The notes under the pieces were generated by a model. The model saw only the letters and a list, made by a program, of their open reading frames with translations. It had not been told where the DNA came from and did no database searches. A stretch of DNA of 64,000 nucleotides. Origin: Schizochytrium sp. TIO01. Lineage: Eukaryota > Sar > Bigyra > Thraustochytrida > Thraustochytriidae. Below, in pieces: positions 10,087-51,835 of this stretch. The first letter of the stretch is position 1, and each line of letters opens with the position of its first letter. The DNA lies in assembly GCA_004764695.1 (NCBI GenBank), contig SMSO01000037.1, positions 4,214,337 to 4,278,336 of the forward strand. Reading direction: 5' to 3'. Position numbers and translations under genes: made by a program.

Positions 10087-10173
10087 CGGGACCGAGGAGG
10101 AGTTGAACCTCTGACGCGCGAACGTCCACCAGGTTTGAAGCCTGGCCTCCCTGCCGAGGAAGATCACGCTCCC
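10087..10173 (-). tRNA. tRNA-Sec (TCA), selenocysteine
   Basis: An 87-nt gene with the anticodon TCA (10136-10138) in the loop CTTCAAA, closed by the perfect stem CCAGG/CCTGG. It has the oddities of selenocysteine tRNA: a six-pair D stem (CTTCCT/AGGGAG) with a four-base loop, a long variable arm (GACG/CGTC), a four-pair T stem (GAGG/CCTC) around TTCAACT, and a nine-position acceptor stem starting GGGAGCGTG, with discriminator G. Two acceptor positions do not pair (G5 opposite G, and T8 opposite T; a U-U mismatch is also present at the matching place in the human gene). It decodes UGA as selenocysteine. Its presence shows the organism makes selenoproteins, and it agrees with the SelD-like gene at 39-42 kb. 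Confidence 0.93.
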
Positions 10174-26560: not shown

Positions 26561-27943
26561 ATGGCTACTGAGATTCTTCCTGCTGCTGCTACTGAGCCCA
26601 TCTTCACCCTCGAAGATGATACTAAGCTTCTCAAGGAGCTAAACTCGAAGCCATACAAGGCTCAGGCCGTCTGGTTTCTCAACGCCTTTTGGAAAAAGGG
26701 CCCTGCCTTTGGCGACAACCTCGCCGAGGCCGAAAAGGTCTGGTCCTTCCACAACTCTTGCGTCGAACTCGATAGCAAGGGTGATGAAGGCAGCGAACTC
26801 GATGAAATGAAGGCCCACATCCTTCTCGAGCGCACCGAAGGTGCTCTCACTGTCCGCGAGCTCCGTGAGCGCCTGAAGGCCATTGACCTTGACTTCAACA
26901 AGTATGTCAGTCTTACGGAGTACCTTGTCACCACGTACGCTGTAGACTGGCGTGAGCTTGTCCATGCCCCGCAAGGCCAGGTTGATGAGGCCAAGCTCGC
27001 TCTTGCTCAGCAGAAGGTCGAAGAGGCCAAGCAGGATATTGCAGATTGCGAAACTCGTGCTAAAGAGGCCAAGTCTGCCGAGGCCCAAGCAGTGGCTGCC
27101 GAGGCCCAGGCCAAGCAGAATGAGGCTGAGGCGAAGGACTCTGAGTCCAAGGCCAAGGAAGCCGAGGCCAAGGCCCAGAGTGCTGCCGAAGAGGCCAAGA
27201 CCCAGGAATCTCGGGCGTTCCAGGAGGAGGAAATCTCCAAGGAAGCCGAGACCAAGGCTGTCCAGCTTGCTGAGGAGCAGGTCGCTGTGCAGAAGCAGGT
27301 CGAGGAAGCTCTCGAGGCCGTCACCCGTGAAGAGAAGGCCTTCCACGATGAGTGCAACGCCCTTGACACCACCGCCAACGACGAGTCCCTCGGAATTGTT
27401 GCTCGCAACAAGGCCAAGAACGAGCTTGCCCAGCTCCAGCAGACCGACCCGATCCCTCTTCAGCGTGCTAAGATTAGCCAAGAGGCTGTTGTTCGTCGTC
27501 AGGAGCGTGCAACCAAGTCTGCTGCCAGTGCACGCGCTGCTGCAGAGTCTGCACGTGTTCAGGCTGAAGAGGCTCGCAAGATTGCCGTGAACTCTCGAGA
27601 GCGCTCTGAGGAGGCTGCCTCCCAGGCTACATCACGTCGTCGTGGTGCAGAGAAGGACGCTGAGAAGGCTTCGAATGCTCGTGAGCAAGCTGAGGACGCT
27701 CGCCAGACTGCTGTCAAGTCTCGCGAAGATGCCAACGCTGCTCTGCAAAAGTCTACCGAGTCATTCCAGGCGGCACAGCAATTTCTTGACAAGGTCAAAC
27801 GTGAATGTGCGGGTGCCGGAAAGGGCAAGCTGTGGTGGCTTGACCGTGAGTTGGAAGAGGCCAAGAAGTACATGTCTCCTGCTCAACTTGCACGCTTGCA
27901 GGCCGCACCTCCTTTGCAGGAGGATCAGGTTGCTTCTGCGTAA
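26561..27943 (+). CDS. ABP34-like calcium-regulated actin-bundling protein, copy 1
   Basis: A 460-residue protein. N-terminal and C-terminal parts match Dictyostelium 34-kDa actin-bundling protein: KAQAVWFLNAFW (33-44), an EF-hand loop DLDFNKYVSLTE (109-120) with all calcium ligand positions filled, and the C-terminal signature LWWLDRELEEAKKYM (about 426-440). A second, degenerate EF loop is seen around 71-82. Unlike the 295-residue Dictyostelium protein, about 270 residues of Ala/Glu/Lys-rich coiled coil are inserted in between. It should cross-link actin filaments, with calcium turning the activity down. Codon use is strongly C/G-ending (GCC, GAG, AAG, CTC), unlike the neighbours, a sign of high expression. 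Most of the gene is nearly identical to copy 2 about 2.7 kb downstream. Confidence 0.86.
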   Translation: MATEILPAAATEPIFTLEDDTKLLKELNSKPYKAQAVWFLNAFWKKGPAFGDNLAEAEKVWSFHNSCVELDSKGDEGSELDEMKAHILLERTEGALTVRELRERLKAIDLDFNKYVSLTEYLVTTYAVDWRELVHAPQGQVDEAKLALAQQKVEEAKQDIADCETRAKEAKSAEAQAVAAEAQAKQNEAEAKDSESKAKEAEAKAQSAAEEAKTQESRAFQEEEISKEAETKAVQLAEEQVAVQKQVEEALEAVTREEKAFHDECNALDTTANDESLGIVARNKAKNELAQLQQTDPIPLQRAKISQEAVVRRQERATKSAASARAAAESARVQAEEARKIAVNSRERSEEAASQATSRRRGAEKDAEKASNAREQAEDARQTAVKSREDANAALQKSTESFQAAQQFLDKVKRECAGAGKGKLWWLDRELEEAKKYMSPAQLARLQAAPPLQEDQVASA

Positions 27944-29263
27944 GAGAGATGAGAGGCCTGCGAGGAAAACTTAAATGCAGGGACCGAGACTGGGAAAGAT
28001 GGAACAGACCTACTCGGCAAGCTGGGTAACCTCATCCTGCCGATCATCGTTCGAGCGACCCTTTCTTTCATCGAACCGCTGGTACACGTGCTACTAAACG
28101 TACTACTTACTATCTAGGTACCTACCTACCTACCTACCTACCTACCTACCTACTGTGACGGTTAGAAAATAGTTATTACAGACCACAGCTATCACCAAAA
28201 CGAACATCACTAGTAATAGCTAATGACCCAATAATAGGTGTGTAAAAATGAAAATAATTTTAAGATTGTCCGCCTTTTCCTATTGTTTTTCCTTCTTTCT
28301 TCTCTTTTTTTTTTTTCTTCAAAATTTAGACTTACGTTAGCTTGCAGAATGTTTAGGAATAGACCAACCCTAGGAGGTCTAAGCAACCCTCATGAAGTGA
28401 TTTTTAAAGTAATCATCAATGGAAATAAAGTCTTAATAGCCCGAACCAGCTGACATTGTATGTTGGTAAGAGTTCGCCGTTTACGTTGTACGGTGGGTAG
28501 AAAAGTTAGCTGCTGTAAAAAAGTAAAACTTAAAAATCAAGAGTCAATGATGGTTAAACTTCAAAAGAACCATTCTGTGAGGTAACTCCAAGAGGTATGT
28601 CAAAGTTCTTCCTTATGACCTTTTTTCTTTTCATTTTTACCAATCGACACACAAGAACCAAAAGTAGAAAAGAGCGCTTCAACATGTACAAAGAGGGTAT
28701 TACTTTGCACAGAGGCGCAACATGTCCCACTTGAGGATGCTGAGGCGAAACGGGTCCCAATGTTTTTTGTTTTGGGAGGATCCAGCACTTAACTGCTGCC
28801 AGTATGCCTGATTGTGATACGAGTAGCATAAAATAAAAATTAGGCTAGCACCATCTTGCTAAACAGACACCCTTGGGTAAGTCTATTGGACAACTGACTT
28901 TGACCGTGCAGAATCATGTTTGCTCGTCTGGAAAGATATGATAAAGGAGAAAGAGAGAAAACAACATGCTCCATAATAAAGTTGTCTTGGGGAAATGACC
29001 AAACCAATACCCACCTACTCAAAATTGGAAGCAGTAGATTTTCCCTGTCAAGCCTTCTATCTTAGTTGTTGAGCTAGTAGGATTAACTGGGATGTCAAAT
29101 TAGATTGGCAAACAAGGTCAGTCCAAAAGGCTTGAAAAACGGAAGGCTTGAGAAATCGCAACACAGAGAATGCAAGCAGCAAATCCAGATTGACCTTGCT
29201 TGCAAAAGCAAATCTACAATAAGCGCAAGTGCAACTAACACCAGATTTCTTGAATATACAATC
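27944..29263. other. Spacer between the two ABP34-like genes
   Basis: Holds the 3' end of copy 1 and promoter of copy 2. It is not repeated outside the pair: the sequences upstream of the two copies differ. It contains a (CCTA)n run. No supported gene. Confidence 0.6.
28119..28153. repeat. (CCTA)n microsatellite
   Basis: About eight tandem CCTA units downstream of ABP34-like copy 1. The same tetranucleotide, in shorter runs, is scattered through many spacers of the window. Confidence 0.9.
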
Positions 29264-30742
29264 ATGGCTACGGAAGTGAGTGCTACCCCGGATATTCCCG
29301 TTGCTGTTGACCCGGCAACCTCGCTCGAGGATGATACTAAGCTTCTCAAGGAGCTAAACTCGAAGCCATACAAGGCTCAGGCCGTCTGGTTTCTCAACGC
29401 CTTTTGGAAAAAGGGCCCTGCCTTTGGCGACAACCTCGCCGAGGCCGAAAAGGTCTGGTCCTTCCACAACTCTTGCGTCGAACTCGATAGCAAGGGTGAT
29501 GAAGGCAGCGAACTCGACGAAATGAAGGCCCACATCCTTCTCGAGCGCACCGAAGGTGCTCTCACTGTCCGCGAGCTCCGTGAGCGCCTGAAGGCCATTG
29601 ACCTTGACTTCAACAAGTATGTCAGTCTTACGGAGTACCTTGTCACCACGTACGCTGTAGACTGGCGTGAGCTTGTCCATGCCCCGCAAGGCCAGGTTGA
29701 TGAGGCCAAGCTCGCTCTTGCTCAGCAGAAGGTCGAAGAGGCCAAGCAGGATATTGCAGATTGCGAAACTCGTGCTAAAGAGGCCAAGGTTGCCGAGGCC
29801 CAAGCAGTGGCTGCCGAGGCTCAGGCCAAGCAGAATGAGTCCGAGGCGAAGGACTCTGAGTCCAAGGCTAAGGCGAAGGAAGCTGAGGCGAAGGACTCTG
29901 AGTCCAAGGCCAAGGAAGCCGAGGCCAAGGCCCAGAGTGCTGCCGAAGAGGCCAAGACCCAGGAATCTCGGGCGTTCCAGGAGGAGGAAATCTCCAAGGA
30001 AGCCGAGACCAAGGCTGTCCAGCTTGCTGAGGAGCAGGTCGCTGTGCAGAAGCAGGTCGAGGAAGCTCTCGAGGCCGTCACCCGTGAAGAGAAGGCCTTC
30101 CACGATGAGTGCAACGCCCTTGACACCACCGCCAACGACGAGTCCCTCGGAATTGTTGCTCGCAACAAGGCCAAGAACGAGCTTGCCCAGCTCCAGCAGA
30201 CCGACCCGATCCCTCTTCAGCGTGCTAAGATTAGCCAAGAGGCTGTTGTTCGTCGTCAGGAGCGTGCAACCAAGTCTGCTGCCAGTGCACGCGCTGCTGC
30301 AGAGTCTGCACGTGTTCAGGCTGAAGAGGCTCGCAAGATTGCCGTGAACTCTCGAGAGCGCTCTGAGGAGGCTGCCTCCCAGGCTACATCACGTCGTCGT
30401 GGTGCAGAGAAGGACGCTGAGCAGGCATCCCAGGCTCGCCACAGCGCCGAAGAGGATGCTGAGAAGGCGTCCAATGCTCGCGAGGGTGCTGAGAAGGCAC
30501 GTGAAGGTGCCGAAAACGCTCGCGAGGAAGCTAACGCGGCTCTGCAAAAGTCTACTGAGTCATTCCAAGCTGCTCAAGCCTTTCTGCAGCAAGTTAAACG
30601 TGAGTGTTCTGGTGCTGGCAAGGGCAAGCTGTGGTGGCTTGACCGTGAGTTGGAAGAGGCCAAGAAGTACATGTCTCCTGCCCAACTAGCACGGCTCCAG
30701 GCTGCGCCTTCCCTCAAGGAGGATCAGACCTCCGTCGCATAA
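29264..30742 (+). CDS. ABP34-like calcium-regulated actin-bundling protein, copy 2
   Basis: A 492-residue paralogue of copy 1 with the same plan: KAQAVWFLNAFW, the EF-hand DLDFNKYVSLTE, a long Ala/Glu/Lys coiled coil and the C-terminal LWWLDRELEEAKKYM. The first 20 residues differ. Then 29330-30421 match 26615-27664 almost base for base apart from a 42-nt in-frame insertion (14 residues, one more KAKEAEAKDSES unit). After that the coiled-coil end diverges and is longer here, with extra heptad-like units (AREGAEKAREGAENAREEA), before the end converges again. The frame opens 159 nt earlier, but the Met at 29264 aligns with the start of copy 1 (both begin MATE). Codon use is strongly biased, as in copy 1. 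Confidence 0.86.
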   Translation: MATEVSATPDIPVAVDPATSLEDDTKLLKELNSKPYKAQAVWFLNAFWKKGPAFGDNLAEAEKVWSFHNSCVELDSKGDEGSELDEMKAHILLERTEGALTVRELRERLKAIDLDFNKYVSLTEYLVTTYAVDWRELVHAPQGQVDEAKLALAQQKVEEAKQDIADCETRAKEAKVAEAQAVAAEAQAKQNESEAKDSESKAKAKEAEAKDSESKAKEAEAKAQSAAEEAKTQESRAFQEEEISKEAETKAVQLAEEQVAVQKQVEEALEAVTREEKAFHDECNALDTTANDESLGIVARNKAKNELAQLQQTDPIPLQRAKISQEAVVRRQERATKSAASARAAAESARVQAEEARKIAVNSRERSEEAASQATSRRRGAEKDAEQASQARHSAEEDAEKASNAREGAEKAREGAENAREEANAALQKSTESFQAAQAFLQQVKRECSGAGKGKLWWLDRELEEAKKYMSPAQLARLQAAPSLKEDQTSVA

Positions 30743-37835: not shown

Positions 37836-39258
37836 ACCCCTTCAAGCAGAGGTTAAACAAAATGAATGGAGAAAATAAAAAGTTATACCTAGGTAGTATG
37901 ATAGATGAATACTAGTTTCAAGTACTAAATACAAACAAATCCATAAGATTGTGAATATTAATCTAGAGCATTAATAACCTGTGTATCAAGTCAGAACTAG
38001 ATGAATGTGTGAGAGTCCCAAACTCTTACCTTTATTGTGGTGCCCACCTATTAAATCAGAAGTTGTACTCTCAGAAGGTTGAGGTGAAGTGCAGGTCGTT
38101 CTTCCTTATATTGAGAACCAGTGAATATTAAATTGTGAGATCGTTCAAAGCTTCCTCCAGGATCTCTAGATGAATTCCAATCAATAGAGTATCTTAAAAT
38201 ACAAGCCGGTTGGATTCTGGTGCTTACACGACTTTGCAGTCGTACCAAAATTAGAACTAGCAGTATCTTCTAATTTTTCAAAGGGGGGACTTCTTGTTCT
38301 ATTCAACATACAGAATTAGTAGATCAATGAAAGACCACATTATCAACAAACAAAACAACCAAGTATTAACATTGCATTGTTTATCCATGGCCGAGTCTTC
38401 CGTTTCGCTTCATGTTCTGCAGCTCGAAGCTCTCTTTTTCAAGGTTTCCTTTAATTATTATTCAAGATCTAAAGTTCTGAAGTAGCGTTTCACAACTCAA
38501 ATTCACACTCATTTTTTCGTTTCTATTCTAAAAGCTACACAGAATGAGGTCAAGGTGAGGCTTGTAAGAGTTTAGCACTCAGAAAGGAGCAAGATCTCAG
38601 CAATTGCAAATAAATTAACTGTAGAATTTGAGGTGATGTGTTTGTTGCACTACATCATACATCGTAAAATAATTTAAAAATAAAGATGGTGGACAGACGA
38701 CAGAGTCGACCTAAAGAGGTGAGTTGAAATTTTGAGGAGTATGTGACAAGAATCACTTAATTATCGCAAACAAAAAAATCTATTCGATATCAAAGCGACA
38801 GGAAAAGGATGACAACTATTTGTGTAGGCAATACTGCTGTAGTAAGTTGCTTTTCCACAAGGTGAAGTCGTAGTTCAAATGTATCATGTCTTAACTACCC
38901 AATGAAGTCCAAAAGTATAGTCAGCCTGGCGAAGCGCATTTTGATATGGGCTATGAAGATATATCGATAAGCAGGTGGAGTTCTTTCTCATCTTTTGACC
39001 CAGGCGCTAGTAAAGTCTGATAGTGGGTTAGTCGTCGTAAGGTATGAAGATTCGGTCTAAGCGTTACTAGGCCTAGTTAGGCAATTATCCCTCTTCCTTT
39101 TCATTCAAGTTTGTTCATGGTCAAGAGGGCACTAAGTAGTATCGGCTAAATCCCTAGTCGCTACTAATTAGAGATTGCTGGTAAAAGAACTCTTGCTTCT
39201 TTCCGGTAGTAGTCAGGTATTGCAAATCTCCGTGCATCGAGTCCGCAGGCCCAGCACC
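37836..39258. other. Divergent promoter region
   Basis: AT-rich region between the starts of TELO2 (minus) and the NDH-SelD fusion (plus). No supported gene. Confidence 0.55.
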
Positions 39259-42200
39259 ATGGGTGCTACTCTGAGCAGCCTGAGGTGGCTTGCGCTCGGG
39301 CTTTACCACGCACCACTCTCTCTCTTTCCCCTGGACTGGGTCCGCATCCTCGTAGAGGTCTTTGGACTTCAAGTTTCCGCACTCTTGCTGTTTCCTGCGC
39401 ACAGCTCTTCCTGTTGCTCGGAAAAAGATAACAAATACTACAAGGATATAGATAAAAGCAGCATAAACTCAAGTTCATCTTGGGCCGTCCGAGTCTACCA
39501 GGATCTGTGCTCTCTGCACGAGACTTGCAGAGTTCTTTGGGGCATCGAGCTTGACAGGCGCATGGAAGAGGCGCTTGTCTACAGAACCCAGAGCAGTAGT
39601 AGCAATACTTTTCTTGCTTTCAACCAGAGTGGATATTACAGTGGTGGTGAATCAGGGCATAGCTTGGGCAACAACCGTGGAGTAGACAACGTAGGAAGCA
39701 GTTTGATAAGGAAACCAAGTGGAAATTGCCTTCGTAGCAATTGTAGTAAAGGTTGGCAATCTCAGGGAGTTGCGAGTGCACTCTTTGGTGGATCACTCTC
39801 GGGAACGGTTTCTCATCTCTTGGGTCGCCATAATAAGCAACATCAAAAGAGCCTCATCCGAAGTGGACTAGCAGGACTTCTTTTATCTCCTTTGACGTGG
39901 CTGTTTTGGGGAGGTAGCTCTACATCCCGGTCTCAATTCGGATTTGGCGTTGGATCTTTGTCGCCAATATCTCCGAGAGTTTTCGGTCTCCCTTCAAGAG
40001 CAGACACTATGATGAAAATGCAGCAACATGAAGTAGGTCCAGTAAGCAGGGATCTTGTTCTAATTGGAGGCGGTCATGCTCATGCATTTGTGGTGAAAAA
40101 TATGGGTATGAAACCCGAACCAGGACTCTCCGTTACCCTCATCACGCCCGAGGTCGACACCCCTTACTCAGGCATGCTCCCAGGCCACATCGCGGGTGTT
40201 TACACTCGCGAAGAATGTCACATTGACCTGGTACGCCTTTGCCAATTCGGACATGTGCGACTTGTGCTAGCTTCAGCCACATCCATTGATCTTGAGAACA
40301 AAGTTGTCCATCTCGATGACCCCCGAAGACCTCCGATTCGTTACGACGTTCTCTCAATTGATATTGGATCTGCACCGCAGATGCTTGAGGGTTCAGCAGT
40401 CGCCTCTGCAACATTTACAGCAACACCTGTCAAGCCTATATGGCGCTTTTCTGAGCGCTGGCAATCTCTTGTAGACTGCATCGAAGCCAAGGCAAATCTT
40501 GTTAACTCCTCGTCCGCAGATGCCATGAACGGCAGAAACCAAAAGAAAGATGGTGATATCGCTGATGGTCAGGGAGATGGAAAACGCTGCAGCACTTGCA
40601 CAGGCTCAAGAACCTTTCACAATCGCAGTAGTTGGTGCAGGTGCTGGTGGCGTGGAATTGGCCCTGGGAATGCAGCATCGCTTAGAGGGCATTGTACAGG
40701 ACAAATTAAAAGTCCAATTTGTGTTAATCAGTAACAAGAATGTCGTATGTCCTTCGCATAACAAAGGTGTTCAGAAGCGTTTTGCAAGAATCCTCAAAGA
40801 ACGTGGCGTGAATGTCATTTATGACTTTGAGGTTGTAGGCTTGGAAGAGAAGCGCCTTCGAGCCAAGGATGGACGTATCGTCAATGTTGACGAGTGTATT
40901 TGGTGCACAAACGCCAAGACGCAGGAGTGGATGGGCGCGTCAGGCCTGGCAGTAGACAAAGGCGGCTTTGTTCGAGTTAAACAAACCCTAGAGTCTGAGG
41001 ATACACCAAATGTTTTTGCTGCAGGTGATTGCGCGAATATGCTCGAACACCCGCGCCCGAAAGCTGGCGTTTTTGCAGTACGTCAAGGCCCACCTCTTGC
41101 TGCTAACCTGCGCCGAGCTATTCGTAATCTGAACCGCCGTTCATCTCAGGCTGCAGAGCCTTTGGAAGAATATATTCCTCAAAAGTCCTTTCTGGGCCTC
41201 ATTAGCACAGGCCGACCCTACTGTGTGGCGTCGCGTGGTGAAATGTCCATGGAGGGTAAGTGGCTATGGAAGATGAAGGACTACATTGATCGCAAGTGGA
41301 TGGCTGGTTTTACGACGGACCTCCCAGTTATGAACAGTGATCTAGAGAACCACAACAACGAAGACGGTCATGGATCCGAAGCGGATAGTCTTGAGACTTT
41401 AACTAAGGCTTCACTTATGCGATGTGGCGGATGCGGTGCAAAGGTTGGTAAGTCGGTCTTAGACCGTGTCATGCAGAACTTGAACCCACCTACTCGACCA
41501 GAGGTTCAAGTAGGACTTGATGCGCCTGACGATTGTGCTGTTGTACAGTTCGACAATACAAATCCGCGAGCACCTCGTGTTGTGCAGACTGTTGACTTTT
41601 TCCGTTCTTTCATTGACGACCCATTTGTATTTGGTCAGATCGCTGCTAATCATGCCCTAAGCGACTGCCATGCAATGTGCGCAGAAGCTGTCACCGCTAT
41701 GGCAATCGCTGTTGTGCCATTTGCCGCAGAGCCTGTTGTTGAAGGTGTCCTCACCCAGCTCATGGCTGGTGCGTCTGTAGCTCTTGAGGAAAGCAAGTGT
41801 GCTCTGGTTGGGGGTCACTCATGTGAAGGAAAGGACCTTGCACTAGGCCTCTCTGTAAGTGGCGTCGTTGAGGCTGGGGATCAACTTCTCACGAAGGGCG
41901 GAGTCCAGGATGGAGATGCGCTTGTTCTAACAAAGGCAATCGGCACCGGGACGATTTTTGCAGCAAACATGCGTGTCATGGCGAAAGGCAGCTGGGTCCA
42001 GAGCGCCATCAATAGTATGCTTGTTTCAAATAAAGAGGCAGCCATAACAGCCAGAGATCACGATGCAACTGCTTGTACTGACATCACTGGCTTTGGAGTC
42101 ATGGGCCATCTTATTGAAATGATGCAAGCAAGTGATTCTGACCTTATTGCCAATGTGGAGGTTGACGAAATTCCCTATCTTGAAGGCGCCATCGAATGTG

Positions 42201-42472
42201 TGGAATCGGGGGTATTCTCTTCTTTGCAACCGCAGAACACTCGCTTAAGGCGCAGTGTTCTCAACCATTCTCAGGCGGCAGCTTCGTTTCCAGCAAAGTA
42301 TCCCTTGCTCTACGACCCTCAAACCTCTGGAGGTTTGCTCATCAGCGTTCCTGCCGCACAAGCTGATGGTCTTGTAAAAGCTCTTCAAGAGAAAGGGTAC
42401 TCCAAGTCTTCTATAATTGGCCACATCCAACGCGGCGACACGGAGGGTGGCCATCGTGTCAAAATCACTTAA
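39259..42472 (+). CDS. NDH-SelD fusion: FAD/NAD oxidoreductase joined to selenophosphate synthetase, frame broken
   Basis: An N-terminal extension of about 250 residues with hydrophobic stretches comes first (possible organelle targeting or membrane anchor). Next is an NDH-type flavoprotein module: RDLVLIGGGHAHAFVV binds FAD, and IAVVGAGAGGVELAL binds NAD(P). The C-terminal third is SelD: CGGCGAKVG with the catalytic Cys near 41432, DAPDDCAVV, QTVDFFRSFIDDPFVFGQIAANHALSD and DPQTSGGLL. It makes selenophosphate from selenide and ATP for tRNA-Sec charging. The flavoprotein half may supply reduced selenium. The active site has Cys, not Sec. The two halves are in different frames: frame 1 carries the protein to about 40540 and frame 2 from about 40550 on, so one base too many (or a tiny intron) lies in the linker. 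NDH-SelD fusions are known in bacteria and some protists. Confidence 0.85.
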
Positions 42473-47034: not shown

Positions 47035-49279
47035 CTTTGCGGCCAGATAGAGCGAATGAACCTCAGTGATCGAAACTTAGATTCCTATGCAATTCAGTTT
47101 GAGTATAGGTTCAACTTTAATGCTTCGTGTGAATTCTTCTTTCCCTGGAAAAATAGGCAATTTGAGACAATTCAGTCTCCGTTTTGCAATGTCTTAATGT
47201 ATTCTTGATTATGCAGAAGGCGGCTTTAACAGCAGACTCTCACAAGAGTCCCTTTCTTACTGCCCCTTGAGGTATGAAGCTAATCCCACTGCTCTAGCCA
47301 GATCCTGTCTCCTCGTCCGTAAAATTTTCGCGCACGAGTTATACTGCAACAATCGCTCGCAGTTGCTTACGGCGAGTACTGTTCTACCTTATGTACATTT
47401 AGTTGAAAAATAGAGCTGAGTTACAGTTGCTTAGGAGCTCTTGTTGCAGCAAGGTGACGTTACTGCTAGATTATTTCTTTGTTATATCAATCGGGCACAC
47501 CTGTCTGAACTTGTGGTGAGTTCTAATGTTTCAAAGTGTTCACGTTGACTACTTGTCGCGAGTACTGCCTTGCCTGCAAACCCTTTTGCACCTCAAACCT
47601 CAGTACTAGAAGGAATAGGACCGCTAGAATAGGATCGCTGTTTCAAAAAGCTATGAGTAGACTCAAATTCCTAGTTATAGCACTGTGTGAGTGTGTGTTT
47701 TGCCGAGGCAAAGCAGTGCTTGTACCTCCTTCTCACAATATTGATGATGCATCTGTTGAATAGTTTGAATAGCAAGGAGGGTTGAAGGTGGAAATACCTA
47801 CTCTTATAATTTCACCTGAAAGCAATGCTAGTACTAGGATAGTCTCGCAAACGGATCTATAACGAGGATATCATGAAAGATGAGGTTGGTGCGCAAACTT
47901 CACGTTCAGAAAAGCGTCAACATATTGAAGAAAATAAAGACCAAAATCATAGGAGAGACATAGGGGAAAGAAGAGAAAAGCAAGTAAGGAAAAAGAAGAA
48001 GAAATACAGAGATAGAAAGAGAAGGACCTAATCTCCAAATGCCAAACAGCGGAGAGGGATGCGAGGGCACAAACTATCTATGGGCCCCATTCATCCATCA
48101 TCCATCCATCCCTAGCAGAAGAGAAGTGGGAGAGCTAGATAGGACAGAAATGGCGAGCAGGTTATTTGTTTGCTTGAGCACTGCAGGTACGTCAAAGAAT
48201 CAGACAGACTCTCTTTCTTTCATTTGTTTGAGTCATGCCATGCACGAAAGGCAGGAAAGACAAATCGTTTGATGAATAAATACAAAAAGTTAGACTTCTA
48301 GTTTATTGAGACGGAGAAAAGCAGCTTTCAGGACAACCCTTGCCGGGGTGCAGCCTCAAGTACAGGGCTGGATCTAGGTCATGGCTGCAACAAAAACACG
48401 GCAGGCTCTGTGCAGATCCATATGCGGACGGTGTGCAATAGATTACTGTCTCATTTTTCTATGAGGCCCAGCTAAAGGGCGAGTCCTGAGGACATCTGTG
48501 AGCGTTGGATTCCCTATTTTCGTGACTTTTTCTTTTGTTTACACCTTCTTCTTTCTGTCAATATACTTAGTCACAAGTCTTCACTTTGGCTTTTTATGCG
48601 GACATGAACAGGAGAAGCGAGTCCAGAGAGGCGCACCTCAAACCCAGGGTGACGTAAGTCTCCCGAACAGTGACACTAGTCGTATTCTTTAATGAGAAGA
48701 ATACGTCTGGACCAGAGGCTAGGTCCAAAATCGAAGACTATAGAGGGTTGTCAAACTCAAAAGAAGGAGCCACGAGAAGGCGTCTATCGCGAGCCGTATG
48801 TTCTACTGGGGATTTACTAAACTAGGCTGGAGCATCATGTTCTAAAAGTCGCCTTTCGGACTCGAAAATGATGACTTTAATCTATTTTATACCGTCTGGG
48901 TTGCTGTTTTTAAAAACAGCAGCCTTCTTATTCAACGCCATGGATCAGAAGGGGCCGTACTTCGTCGGACACACAAATAAAAAATATATTTGCAAAGTAT
49001 CTAGCTGTTAGCTCCCTCAGCAAGATTTCCTGATCCCAGGGTTCAATGAACTAACGCACGCATAGTTTGATAATTCTTCGTGTATACAGACATGAAATCA
49101 TGATAGACACAAACAATCCATACAATGGCTTTGATACAGCCAGTCTGGAGAAGGGAAATAATGACAAGTCTATTATCGTTTTACTTAGTTTCAAAAGTTT
49201 GGCTAGGTCTCTCCCGAGCATGGGCTAGGAGATTAAAGTGGGTCTCTCCCGAGCATGGGCTAGGAGATTAAAGTGGTTT
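47035..49279. other. Long intergenic region
   Basis: Holds the bestrophin gene promoter side (upstream of 47034) and the 3' flank of the PE methyltransferase gene. Purine-rich at 47920-48030. No supported gene; the only distinct element is the 35-bp tandem duplication next to 49280. Confidence 0.5.
49206..49275. repeat. Perfect 35-bp tandem duplication in the 3' UTR of the PE methyltransferase gene
   Basis: Two identical 35-bp copies (49206-49240 and 49241-49275) end 4 bp beyond the stop codon of the gene on the minus strand. Each copy contains complementary arms (TCTCC and GGAGA around 13 bases) and can fold as a small hairpin in the mRNA. Confidence 0.95.
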
Positions 49280-51835
49280 CTAATTTGTGGGAGATTTGCC
49301 AGCAGTTTTTTCACAACGATATACGAACGCAGGAGGTAAATTTGCCCATACAATATTGGATCTCTCGACCTTTTCAAATGTCTCATCTAAAAGCGCTTTG
49401 AAATTCTGACCAGCAGGGAGGACCAAACCTTGGAGGTATGCAAATGTGCAAAATCTCCCACCTGGGCGTAAGGCAGCGTAAACCTGAGAGAGAATTTTTT
49501 GTTGAAGCGAACGCGGGAAAATGGCCCAGGGCAGACCGCTGATCACTGTATCTGCATGATCGATGCCACGCTCCTTCAGAACAGATACAATACGTTCGGC
49601 GGATTCGAGCAGGAAAGATTCCTGGTTCTCAGGAAACCGATCTTTCAACCGGTCGACAAATTCTTTGGAAAGCTCGAATGCCAGATAGGTGGTGTTTTCA
49701 GATTTCCCTAGATGCTTGATAATCGCTGCAGAGAATGGACCTGTGCCTGGCCCAAGCTCAACAACTACTGCGTTATCTCCAAGATACATCGTATCACACA
49801 TTGCTTCAGCTAACTGCTCTGAACTTGGCGCAAGCGCTCCCGTCTCAACGGGATGTTTGACCCAGTTTGCCAAAAACAGGGCCGCTTCGCTTCGGCGAAA
49901 TTCTACAACCTTGGTATGGATTGCACGACCAAGTGCTGATGAGTTAGTGCGCACTTGCTGTTTATATACGGCCCGCAGATGGGGTTTCTCAATGACATTG
50001 AGGAATGAAATCATAATTCCATGGCCAAGAATGGCGACAGCCAATACTTCTGCTGAAGATGCGAGCATAGCAAGCCCATACATCCATAAGTGACCAAGGT
50101 AGGTGTCAGGATTATTAAGATAGCGATACAAACCATCATACGTAAGCGCAGGTGGCGCACCTTGCTTAAGGCGCGCCGGGGGGAGAAAGAAGTCACCATA
50201 GAATGTACCAAAGTCGCCAAGGACCTGGTAGCATGCTTCATGAGACCACAGTGACACCAATAGCAGAATTGCACCAAAGAGGTACTGGCAGATGATTACA
50301 GGGTCGAGGAATCGCTCTGGGAACTTGGTAAATCGAAGGGCACACATGATGAAACTGGATGTCTCTAAACCTTGGAATAAAAGATAAATTCGTTTCCAAT
50401 TTTCAAATGCATGGAGCCGCGAGCGGCCAGCAGCGAGGTAGTGTCGAGTCCACGTTTTATCTCGCTCCTGACGAACAAGAATATACCCTTTTGCCATGGC
50501 AGACAAAACACGAACACCAATAGCAAGCAAAATTAAGGGCATTTCTCCTTCAAAAGGCCCTCCCGGGAAAGAGCCTACCCAAATAGTCGAGATAAAGAGC
50601 AAGATAGCTAAGGTGAGCAAAACGTCGGCGGCTCGGTAAACATCAAAATGCCGCAAGAGATAAATGTAGGAAACACCTACTGAGGTAACTTCATGGAGTA
50701 AACCCATACCTTCTTTAACAGCCTCTGTCTCGACATGAAAAATAGGCTGTTCGTTTCCATAGAGCTCATCTACATGGGGTGCTTCAACAAACACGAGGAA
50801 GATCATTTGGGAAAAGTGGAAACCCATAGCACACGCAAGGACGGGATAACTTCGGGAGAGGAGTGCACACCCATACGTCCATCCATAGCCAACAGTGTAC
50901 ATTGGATGCGGGAATAGACCAAAGACTCCGTTGTACGTGAGTTCGGTATTTCCAGTACGCATGAAAAAGAAATCAAACCAAAACCATGCCGGGTCGCCTG
51001 CATGGGTCATGGCGGACATCTTGCTACCTAAACTGACCACAATAAGGAAGACACCAATCACATCGATGACAGGGTTAAGGATTGGCCAATCAAACTCAGA
51101 CCGTCCAAGACTTCCATACTGGATTGCCATGAGGGTAAACGCCACGACATCGTTGCTCTCAACCAGGATAACAAGGCTTCGGAATGCAACCCAAGCTGCG
51201 AATGAGGGTGGGAGACTGCTATCGTTGAGAACTTCTCGTTCTTCGGGCATGGTCTGTCGCAAAACCCAGCTCCAGAATGCGTTTTCTGTCGTGAATGGCA
51301 TTCGCCGAAGCCTTTGAATCCACTCTGTGAGCAAGCGTTGCTTGCTTTGTTTGTGGAGAAGCCAGCCCAGACCGCAGTTGTAGCCGAGGCGCCACAGGAT
51401 TGCAATAATTAATGTGATACCAGGGAGCTGAGGCCAGAAGAAAGCGCAAACAATGGACACGAGAATACCGGCATAGGCGACGAGGGTTGCAAAGGTATAC
51501 CATTTGGTAAATAAACTCTGGAAAAGGCTGTGCGTCTTTGGCACGTCAAAGACTCGTTGGCCGTCAAGAGTGATGCCGACATCTTGCTGCGAGGCAAACC
51601 GTTTTCGTGCTGCAATTCGCTTTGCACGAGGCATGCTGGACTCTTCGGAGCTGGACTCGATCGTGCTCAGTTGGTCTCGCCTCGCGAATTCACCCGATTT
51701 CTCTGTGAGATGGCCGTCCGATTTCTCACAGTAGTCCGTATCTTCTTCTTGCGCAGAAAACTCTGCCATCGAGGATTCCCCAGTCGAGAAAAAGCTCCCT
51801 CCTGTGGTCCCCTCTCCGGCACCGCGCCGCCGCAT
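49280..51835 (-). CDS. Cho2-type phosphatidylethanolamine N-methyltransferase fused to a PmtA-like methyltransferase
   Basis: An 851-residue protein with three methyltransferase-related modules. After a disordered N-terminus (1-95), residues 105-640 resemble yeast Cho2: many membrane helices and two PEMT modules. The first reads LTYNGVFGLFPHPMYTVGYGWTYG...FVEAPHVDELYG (299-360) and the second LTYDGLYRYLNNPDTYLGHLWMYG...VIEKPH (564-619). Residues about 650-845 are a soluble Rossmann methyltransferase close to bacterial PmtA of the Sinorhizobium type: FLANWVKHPVETGALAPSS, motif I VVELGPGTGPF (691-701), then SGLPWAIFP (766-774) and LRPGGRFCTFAY. Both kinds of enzyme add methyl groups from SAM to phosphatidylethanolamine on the way to phosphatidylcholine. 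Yeast Cho2 (869 residues) has no such domain at its end. The reading frame is continuous across the junction. Confidence 0.87.
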   Translation of the reverse strand: MRRRGAGEGTTGGSFFSTGESSMAEFSAQEEDTDYCEKSDGHLTEKSGEFARRDQLSTIESSSEESSMPRAKRIAARKRFASQQDVGITLDGQRVFDVPKTHSLFQSLFTKWYTFATLVAYAGILVSIVCAFFWPQLPGITLIIAILWRLGYNCGLGWLLHKQSKQRLLTEWIQRLRRMPFTTENAFWSWVLRQTMPEEREVLNDSSLPPSFAAWVAFRSLVILVESNDVVAFTLMAIQYGSLGRSEFDWPILNPVIDVIGVFLIVVSLGSKMSAMTHAGDPAWFWFDFFFMRTGNTELTYNGVFGLFPHPMYTVGYGWTYGCALLSRSYPVLACAMGFHFSQMIFLVFVEAPHVDELYGNEQPIFHVETEAVKEGMGLLHEVTSVGVSYIYLLRHFDVYRAADVLLTLAILLFISTIWVGSFPGGPFEGEMPLILLAIGVRVLSAMAKGYILVRQERDKTWTRHYLAAGRSRLHAFENWKRIYLLFQGLETSSFIMCALRFTKFPERFLDPVIICQYLFGAILLLVSLWSHEACYQVLGDFGTFYGDFFLPPARLKQGAPPALTYDGLYRYLNNPDTYLGHLWMYGLAMLASSAEVLAVAILGHGIMISFLNVIEKPHLRAVYKQQVRTNSSALGRAIHTKVVEFRRSEAALFLANWVKHPVETGALAPSSEQLAEAMCDTMYLGDNAVVVELGPGTGPFSAAIIKHLGKSENTTYLAFELSKEFVDRLKDRFPENQESFLLESAERIVSVLKERGIDHADTVISGLPWAIFPRSLQQKILSQVYAALRPGGRFCTFAYLQGLVLPAGQNFKALLDETFEKVERSNIVWANLPPAFVYRCEKTAGKSPTN

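Follow-up and report, generated by a model that had tools for sequence, protein, structure and literature searches.

The 64,000-nucleotide stretch of the Schizochytrium sp. TIO01 genome analyzed here (the window) encodes, at 49280..51835 on the minus strand (as are all parts of this gene described below), a single protein in which a Cho2-type phosphatidylethanolamine (PE) methyltransferase is followed by a bacterial-type phospholipid N-methyltransferase (Pmt). The fusion is genuine and common to relatives of this organism. The open reading frame (ORF) starts with ATG and comprises 851 codons plus the stop, without an internal stop. The original prediction of one protein in an uninterrupted frame, made from the DNA letters, is thereby confirmed, together with the motifs that it quoted, namely, HPMYTVG at residue 310 and VEAPH at residue 350, NPDTYLG at residue 575 and IEKPH at residue 615, and, in the C-terminal part (the tail), VVELGPGTGPF, SGLPWAIFP, and RPGGRFCTFAY; ten fused entries in protein databases point the same way. 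The parts belong to known families; as an architecture, their combination appears to be new. In the genome of the strain (64.06 Mb in 37 contigs), a single match to the fusion protein was found.

Searching with the part of the full-length protein that covers the tail, we found 12 proteins, 10 of which (P0001 to P0010) combine PEMT with the tail, with P0006, P0007, and P0010 being without the N-terminal part. The best named relative is a fusion from Hondaea fermentalgiana, an organism classed by NCBI under Labyrinthulomycetes, Thraustochytrida, which shows identities of 85% in the tail and of 69% and 75% in the two Cho2 modules. Compared with the window protein, P0001 shows only two differences in 851 residues, at positions 52 and 845. 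This entry clusters two sequences, from JGI and MMETSP, under the name of a complete transcript ORF, and the letters compared are those of one of the two. P0003, named as an MMETSP peptide, is also fused. Given the names of these two entries, the fusion junction is very probably transcribed. An artefact of assembly or gene modeling that joined two neighbouring genes is, for practical purposes, ruled out by the open frame, by the transcript-named relatives P0001 and P0003, and by the occurrence of the same architecture in Hondaea and the other entries. The remaining two proteins, P0011 and P0012, have a DHH domain and a methyltransferase that is similar; here, a DHH/DHHA1 phosphoesterase is joined to the same Pmt type, which represents either another fusion partner or fused gene models.

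When residues 85 to 640 were used as a query, 117 proteins were retrieved, corresponding to 8 fusions already found and 109 others, among them proteins of fungi, Leishmania, Spongospora, and red algae; this search scored the 7996 candidates sharing most words, so that the distribution found for the fusion is a minimum. The tail-family profile matched all 11 fused rows (counting the window) and none of the 109 other Cho2-type proteins, some of which are incomplete, such as P0134, which ends inside module 2. The junction (residues 627 to 649, RTNSSALGRAI..., at 49889..49957) overlaps the end of module 2, and the same stretch is found in the close tail-less proteins P0133, P0135, and P0137, which share the linker R-x-x-S-[TS]-A-[VL] and end soon after it. 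Thus, the tail looks added to the C terminus of an ordinary Cho2. In a tree of 40 Cho2 halves, built from 7 of the 11 fused rows (near-copies and partial rows omitted) and 33 of the 109 others, the fused rows fall together (Shimodaira-Hasegawa-like approximate likelihood ratio test [SH-aLRT], 99) with P0134, a protein of 561 residues on a 1903-base contig, and P0133 and P0135 adjoin this group (support, 90). Since the fused Cho2 halves cluster and their tails form one clade, the sequences suggest that a single fusion event probably took place. In the predicted structure, helices were placed at residues 634 to 648 and 650 to 660; in an amphipathic-helix check, the former had a moment of 0.50, and all 18-mers of the region lay at or below the tail's own 95th percentile.

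Cho2 is an endoplasmic reticulum (ER) membrane enzyme that puts the first methyl group on PE, yielding monomethyl-PE (MMPE). The membrane half of the fusion is of this type, as originally proposed, since it carries two PEMT modules (PF04191) in one chain (E value, 3.8e-42, with the best stretch at residues 517 to 626), together with both the PHPMYxxGY/VExPH motifs of module 1 and the NNP/ExPH motifs of module 2. Module 1 spans residues 85 to 365 (50741..51583), with a PEMT profile match at 50753-51061 (residues 259 to 361), and module 2 spans residues 366 to 640 (49916..50740), with a match at 49958-50287 (residues 517 to 626). Of 78 residues near-invariant in unfused Cho2, 72 are retained, and module 1 retains 46 of the 52 columns that are 90% conserved there; a degenerate Cho2 half replaced by the tail was rejected on this basis, though the residues kept are fewer than in most unfused proteins. 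Two positions were recorded separately: Gly287 of W-WGDFF (window ~50977), with a frequency of 1.00 (rounded) in the unfused rows covering it, is Phe here, which among ten fused rows occurs only in the window protein and in Hondaea; and position 226 (window ~51160), Leu in 98% of unfused Cho2, is Glu in all 8 fused rows covering it. At the N terminus, residues 1 to 61 (51653..51835) are predicted to be disordered (predicted local distance difference test [pLDDT] score, <50) and are poorly conserved; over residues 1 to 84, the identity is 54% to Hondaea and 18 to 37% to the 5 other fusions covering them.

The tail (residues 650 to 845, at 49301..49888) was identified as a Pmt-type Rossmann methyltransferase from family matches, tree, and structure comparison, and it is the most conserved part of the fusion protein. 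For residues ~691 to 796, Pfam returned class I methyltransferase models, with Methyltransf_25 barely over its cutoff (27.8 versus 27 bits). Among the NCBIfam models, matching over residues ~650 to 842, OlsG (NF041658) gave an E value of 1.7e-25 and 89.9 bits versus a cutoff of 350, and PmtA (NF045881) gave 9.3e-14 and 51.3 bits versus a cutoff of 250; the tail may work like a Pmt though it falls below the PmtA family cutoff. The scores for ksgA (TIGR00755; 1.5e-4 and 21.2 bits versus 171) and for Pfam RrnaAD (15 bits versus 24) were also below the cutoffs, and a profile search of solved structures placed Agrobacterium PmtA (AtPmtA) first (5.2e-23), far ahead of the rRNA dimethylases (6e-9 at best). 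An rRNA dimethylase was therefore rejected, and in its sequence the tail groups with PmtA and OlsG, apart from that family, in line with the original assignment. The top structural match of the predicted tail fold is likewise AtPmtA (PDB 9ko3), with a sequence identity of 25%. The closest relatives of the tail carry automatic names only; where there is such a name, it is mostly phospholipid or PE N-methyltransferase. No match above the OlsG cutoff was obtained in any of 199 genomes belonging to the phylum of a Rhodopirellula genome, which indicates that OlsG proper is a more restricted group. For the Schizochytrium genome, a second Pmt gene was considered and rejected, the other matches there being weak (E of at least 0.05 to the tail and at least 0.001 to the OlsG model).

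As for the origin of the tail, the original prediction was right in calling it bacterial and wrong in pointing to the alphaproteobacteria. The best 80 of 564 confirmed loci in a genome scan are 39 to 48% identical to the tail and come from Planctomycetota, Lentisphaerota/Victivallales, Sumerlaeota, Verrucomicrobiota, Kiritimatiellota, Acidobacteriota, actinomycetes such as Nonomuraea, and a small number of other groups; no alphaproteobacterium occurs in the record titles of these 80, one of which names no group. Alphaproteobacterial plasmid matches, among the 40 of 186 records listed, are ~26 to 35% identical. The fused-type tails form one clade both in a quick tree of 124 rows (support, 100) and in a careful tree of 67 rows (100/100), the latter being a selection from 224 whose bacterial rows are best matches to the tail and favour the tail's own branch. 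A strongly supported branch (99 in the quick tree and 100/99 in the careful tree) separates the tails from the alphaproteobacterial Pmts. Six of the seven alphaproteobacterial rows of the quick tree lie across it; the seventh (L105, from Sphingobium, with an end branch of 2.5) is unresolved on the tail's side and was omitted from the 67-row tree and from the constrained-tree test. In that test, holding the tails and the six rows together gave a log-likelihood difference of -24.7 and a P value in the approximately unbiased test (p-AU) of 0.022, which is a rejection, though not an extreme one. An alphaproteobacterial origin was thus rejected, and sequence comparison indicates that the tail is of bacterial origin, with its nearest relatives in Planctomycetota, Lentisphaerota, Acidobacteriota, and actinomycetes. 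No exact sister group emerged from the trees; the simplest reading would be that an ancestor of the thraustochytrids concerned acquired the tail once.

The catalytic motifs are kept in all three methyltransferase units of the fusion. In the tail, the S-adenosylmethionine (SAM) motif ELGPGTG (residues 693 to 699, at 49739..49759) aligns with residues 58 to 64 of AtPmtA and follows the pattern E/DxGxGxG, with the Glu and the three Gly residues invariant in 16 of 16 fused-type tails. The equivalents of AtPmtA Glu84 and Ala107 (Glu721 and Ala746) are present and, like Phe798 and Tyr800, are kept in 16/16, whereas the NxPPA end is kept in 15/16. For S-type Pmts, Watanabe and colleagues (PMC12139422) proposed that a groove tyrosine activates the amine and showed that Ile or Phe beside it governs the extent of methylation, AtPmtA (Ile) proceeding to phosphatidylcholine and Bradyrhizobium PmtA (BdPmtA; Phe) giving mostly MMPE. 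On the residue numbering of that paper, Gly767 of the tail (49535..49537) corresponds to Ala128 of AtPmtA and Gly130 of BdPmtA, Phe798 (49442..49444) to Ile159 and Phe161, and Tyr800 (49436..49438) to Tyr161 and Tyr163. Since this triad is that of BdPmtA, the tail would, by the Ile/Phe rule, serve the first methylation, which speaks against the earlier suggestion that the soluble part carries out the later ones.

Outside the fusion gene, the PEMT model has three matches in the genome, corresponding to an ICMT (L005) and to two ORFs (L004 and L006) resembling plant PLMT, with identities of 42% over 77 residues and 31% over 143 residues to a provisional reference sequence of Arabidopsis PLMT. 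Plant PLMT is described as OPI3-like and as taking only mono- and dimethyl-PE (PMC8353235), so that the two ORFs weaken the idea, also put forward originally, that the tail replaces Opi3. Candidate enzymes of the CDP-alcohol (Kennedy) route are encoded too, and methylation need not be the only way to phosphatidylcholine. One of the ORFs concerned, of 555 residues (L151:292-1959, plus strand; contig C30, ~2085830-2087500), carries a CDP-alcohol phosphotransferase (96 to 192) followed by a cytidylyltransferase (405 to 508) and is likely to be another case in this genome of successive phospholipid enzymes fused together. A further ORF, of 609 residues (L152:898-2727, plus strand), has two cytidylyltransferase stretches and a C-terminal half without a Pfam name.

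The most likely explanation would be that both halves of the fusion serve the entry step from PE to MMPE and that the PLMT-like proteins finish phosphatidylcholine, a proposal to which we give an even chance. The fusion would be the thraustochytrid form of Cho2, with a bacterial-type Pmt joined, probably once, to its C terminus immediately behind the final membrane helix. The membrane half would most likely make MMPE, as Cho2 does elsewhere, while the Pmt half, placed by the putative topology on the cytosolic face and kept in place by the membrane part and not just by an N-terminal helix of its own, would most likely also methylate PE to MMPE, perhaps on to dimethyl-PE (DMPE); the two PLMT-like proteins would then complete phosphatidylcholine. 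The two halves may thus perform the same step rather than successive ones. More tentatively, two unrelated PE-methylating sites acting on the same lipid in the same leaflet, with hand-over of the product, could make the fusion the single gate of the thraustochytrid methylation route or, in the strongest form of this doubtful idea, a complete PE-to-phosphatidylcholine synthase.

Several observations weigh against a shared entry step. Two enzymes for the same step in one chain are an odd reason to retain a fusion. Asp106 of AtPmtA, which is needed for activity, is replaced by Ser745 in the tail and in 16/16 fused-type tails. The Phe at the Ile/Phe site is nearly universal in the tail's own branch (114/115 and 78/80), and the rule, coming from S-type Pmts, may not predict the number of methylations in this distant branch; moreover, BdPmtA with its Phe still yields 28% DMPE in Escherichia coli (PMC8590670). 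OlsG outscores PmtA on the tail and in 7 of 7 relatives scanned, both cutoffs being far off. In the Cho2 half, the fused rows keep 86 to 94% of the near-invariant residues compared to an unfused median of 99%, for columns picked on the unfused set, from which it follows that module 1 has drifted somewhat. Finally, the PLMT assignment depends on a provisional reference sequence, and the PEMT match of the two ORFs stops short of the profile end.

Part of this evidence would fit other readings. A complete three-step enzyme, with MMPE made by the Cho2 half and the second and third methylations by the Pmt half, seems unlikely: BdPmtX1 and Methylobacterium extorquens Pmt2 do take MMPE and make phosphatidylcholine (PMC8590670), and fused pathway proteins usually join successive enzymes, as in the likely CDP-alcohol-route case of the same genome, but Phe798 is the residue of mono-methylating S-type Pmts (PMC12139422) and two PLMT-like ORFs are available for steps 2 and 3. 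We find it somewhat less likely still that the substrate of the tail is a different amine-bearing lipid (lyso-PE, or else a sphingoid or some other amino lipid) and that the fusion merely places the tail at the ER membrane. The best named family, OlsG, is an ornithine-lipid N-methyltransferase, and the automatic names of the closest relatives leave room for such a substrate; however, the OlsG score is far below its cutoff, the fusion partner is a PE methyltransferase, and eukaryotes are said to lack ornithine lipids (PMC12493201). Quite improbable, in our view, is a noncatalytic tail with a regulatory role toward the Cho2 half, binding SAM, S-adenosylhomocysteine, or the membrane, as the Ser at the Asp106 position might suggest, since Ser is the commonest residue there in the wider family (89/115 and 49/80), the SAM motif, Glu721, Ala746, Phe798, and Tyr800 are kept in all 16 fused-type tails and the NxPPA end in all but one, and no other part of the protein is as conserved.

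No description of a Cho2-Pmt fusion was found in the open-licence PMC literature searched on the fusion and on thraustochytrid phosphatidylcholine methylation, so that the original claim of novelty holds within that scope; the Hondaea fusion is already in public databases, named phosphatidylethanolamine N-methyltransferase. The surprise is real but moderate, as two known kinds of enzyme of one pathway are found in one chain and kept across thraustochytrids. These organisms are of industrial interest for docosahexaenoic acid, which is partly carried in phosphatidylcholine (PMC6353168, PMC10523756), and their phosphatidylcholine synthesis is unsettled: for Aurantiochytrium sp. SD116, one study reports the PEMT gene as not identified and proposes that PE methylation does not serve as a key route (PMC10523756), and overexpression of PEMT in the cold is a matter of speculation in PMC9530390. 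The fusion supplies a concrete gene for the methylation route and a clean test. It is also a case in which a eukaryote took up a phospholipid methyltransferase of bacterial type and joined it to a eukaryotic enzyme of the same pathway, and it allows two unrelated ways of carrying out one kind of reaction to be compared within one protein.

Some further features of the window were noticed. Downstream of the fusion gene, a perfect 35-base unit occurs in two copies at 49206-49275, ending 4 bases short of the stop codon. At 39175-42472 (plus strand), two overlapping frames were found, the first with a weak pyridine-nucleotide oxidoreductase start; in the second, the oxidoreductase continues and AIRS/AIRS_C domains (selenophosphate synthetase-like) come after it. 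An intron may account for the shift in frame. ARAGORN predicted a tRNA-SeC at 10088-10171. The neighbouring ORFs at 26561-27943 and 29105-30742 (plus strand) encode coiled-coil-like proteins that closely resemble each other and seem to have arisen by tandem duplication.

Compared to known systems, plant PLMT and yeast Opi3 act in the same pathway, at steps 2 and 3, but have a single PEMT module and are encoded by separate genes, outside the fusion. OlsG, the ornithine lipid N-methyltransferase of Singulisphaera, is the best NCBIfam match over the full tail, with a score far under the cutoff. With the S-type PmtA of Agrobacterium and Bradyrhizobium, the tail shares the SAM motif, the equivalents of Glu84, Ala107, and Tyr161, and the NxPPA end, and its groove triad is that of BdPmtA; different from the tail, bacterial PmtA is a free cytosolic protein of another branch of the family, 25% identical and with Asp at the position of Ser745. 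With the Cho2 proteins of fungi, kinetoplastids, plasmodiophorids, and red algae, the membrane half shares the same two PF04191 modules, their order, and their motifs; whereas, in the Cho2 members used for comparison, the C terminus is a short tail or an unrelated extension (for instance, a SKICH match in P0142), the fusion ends in a class I methyltransferase.
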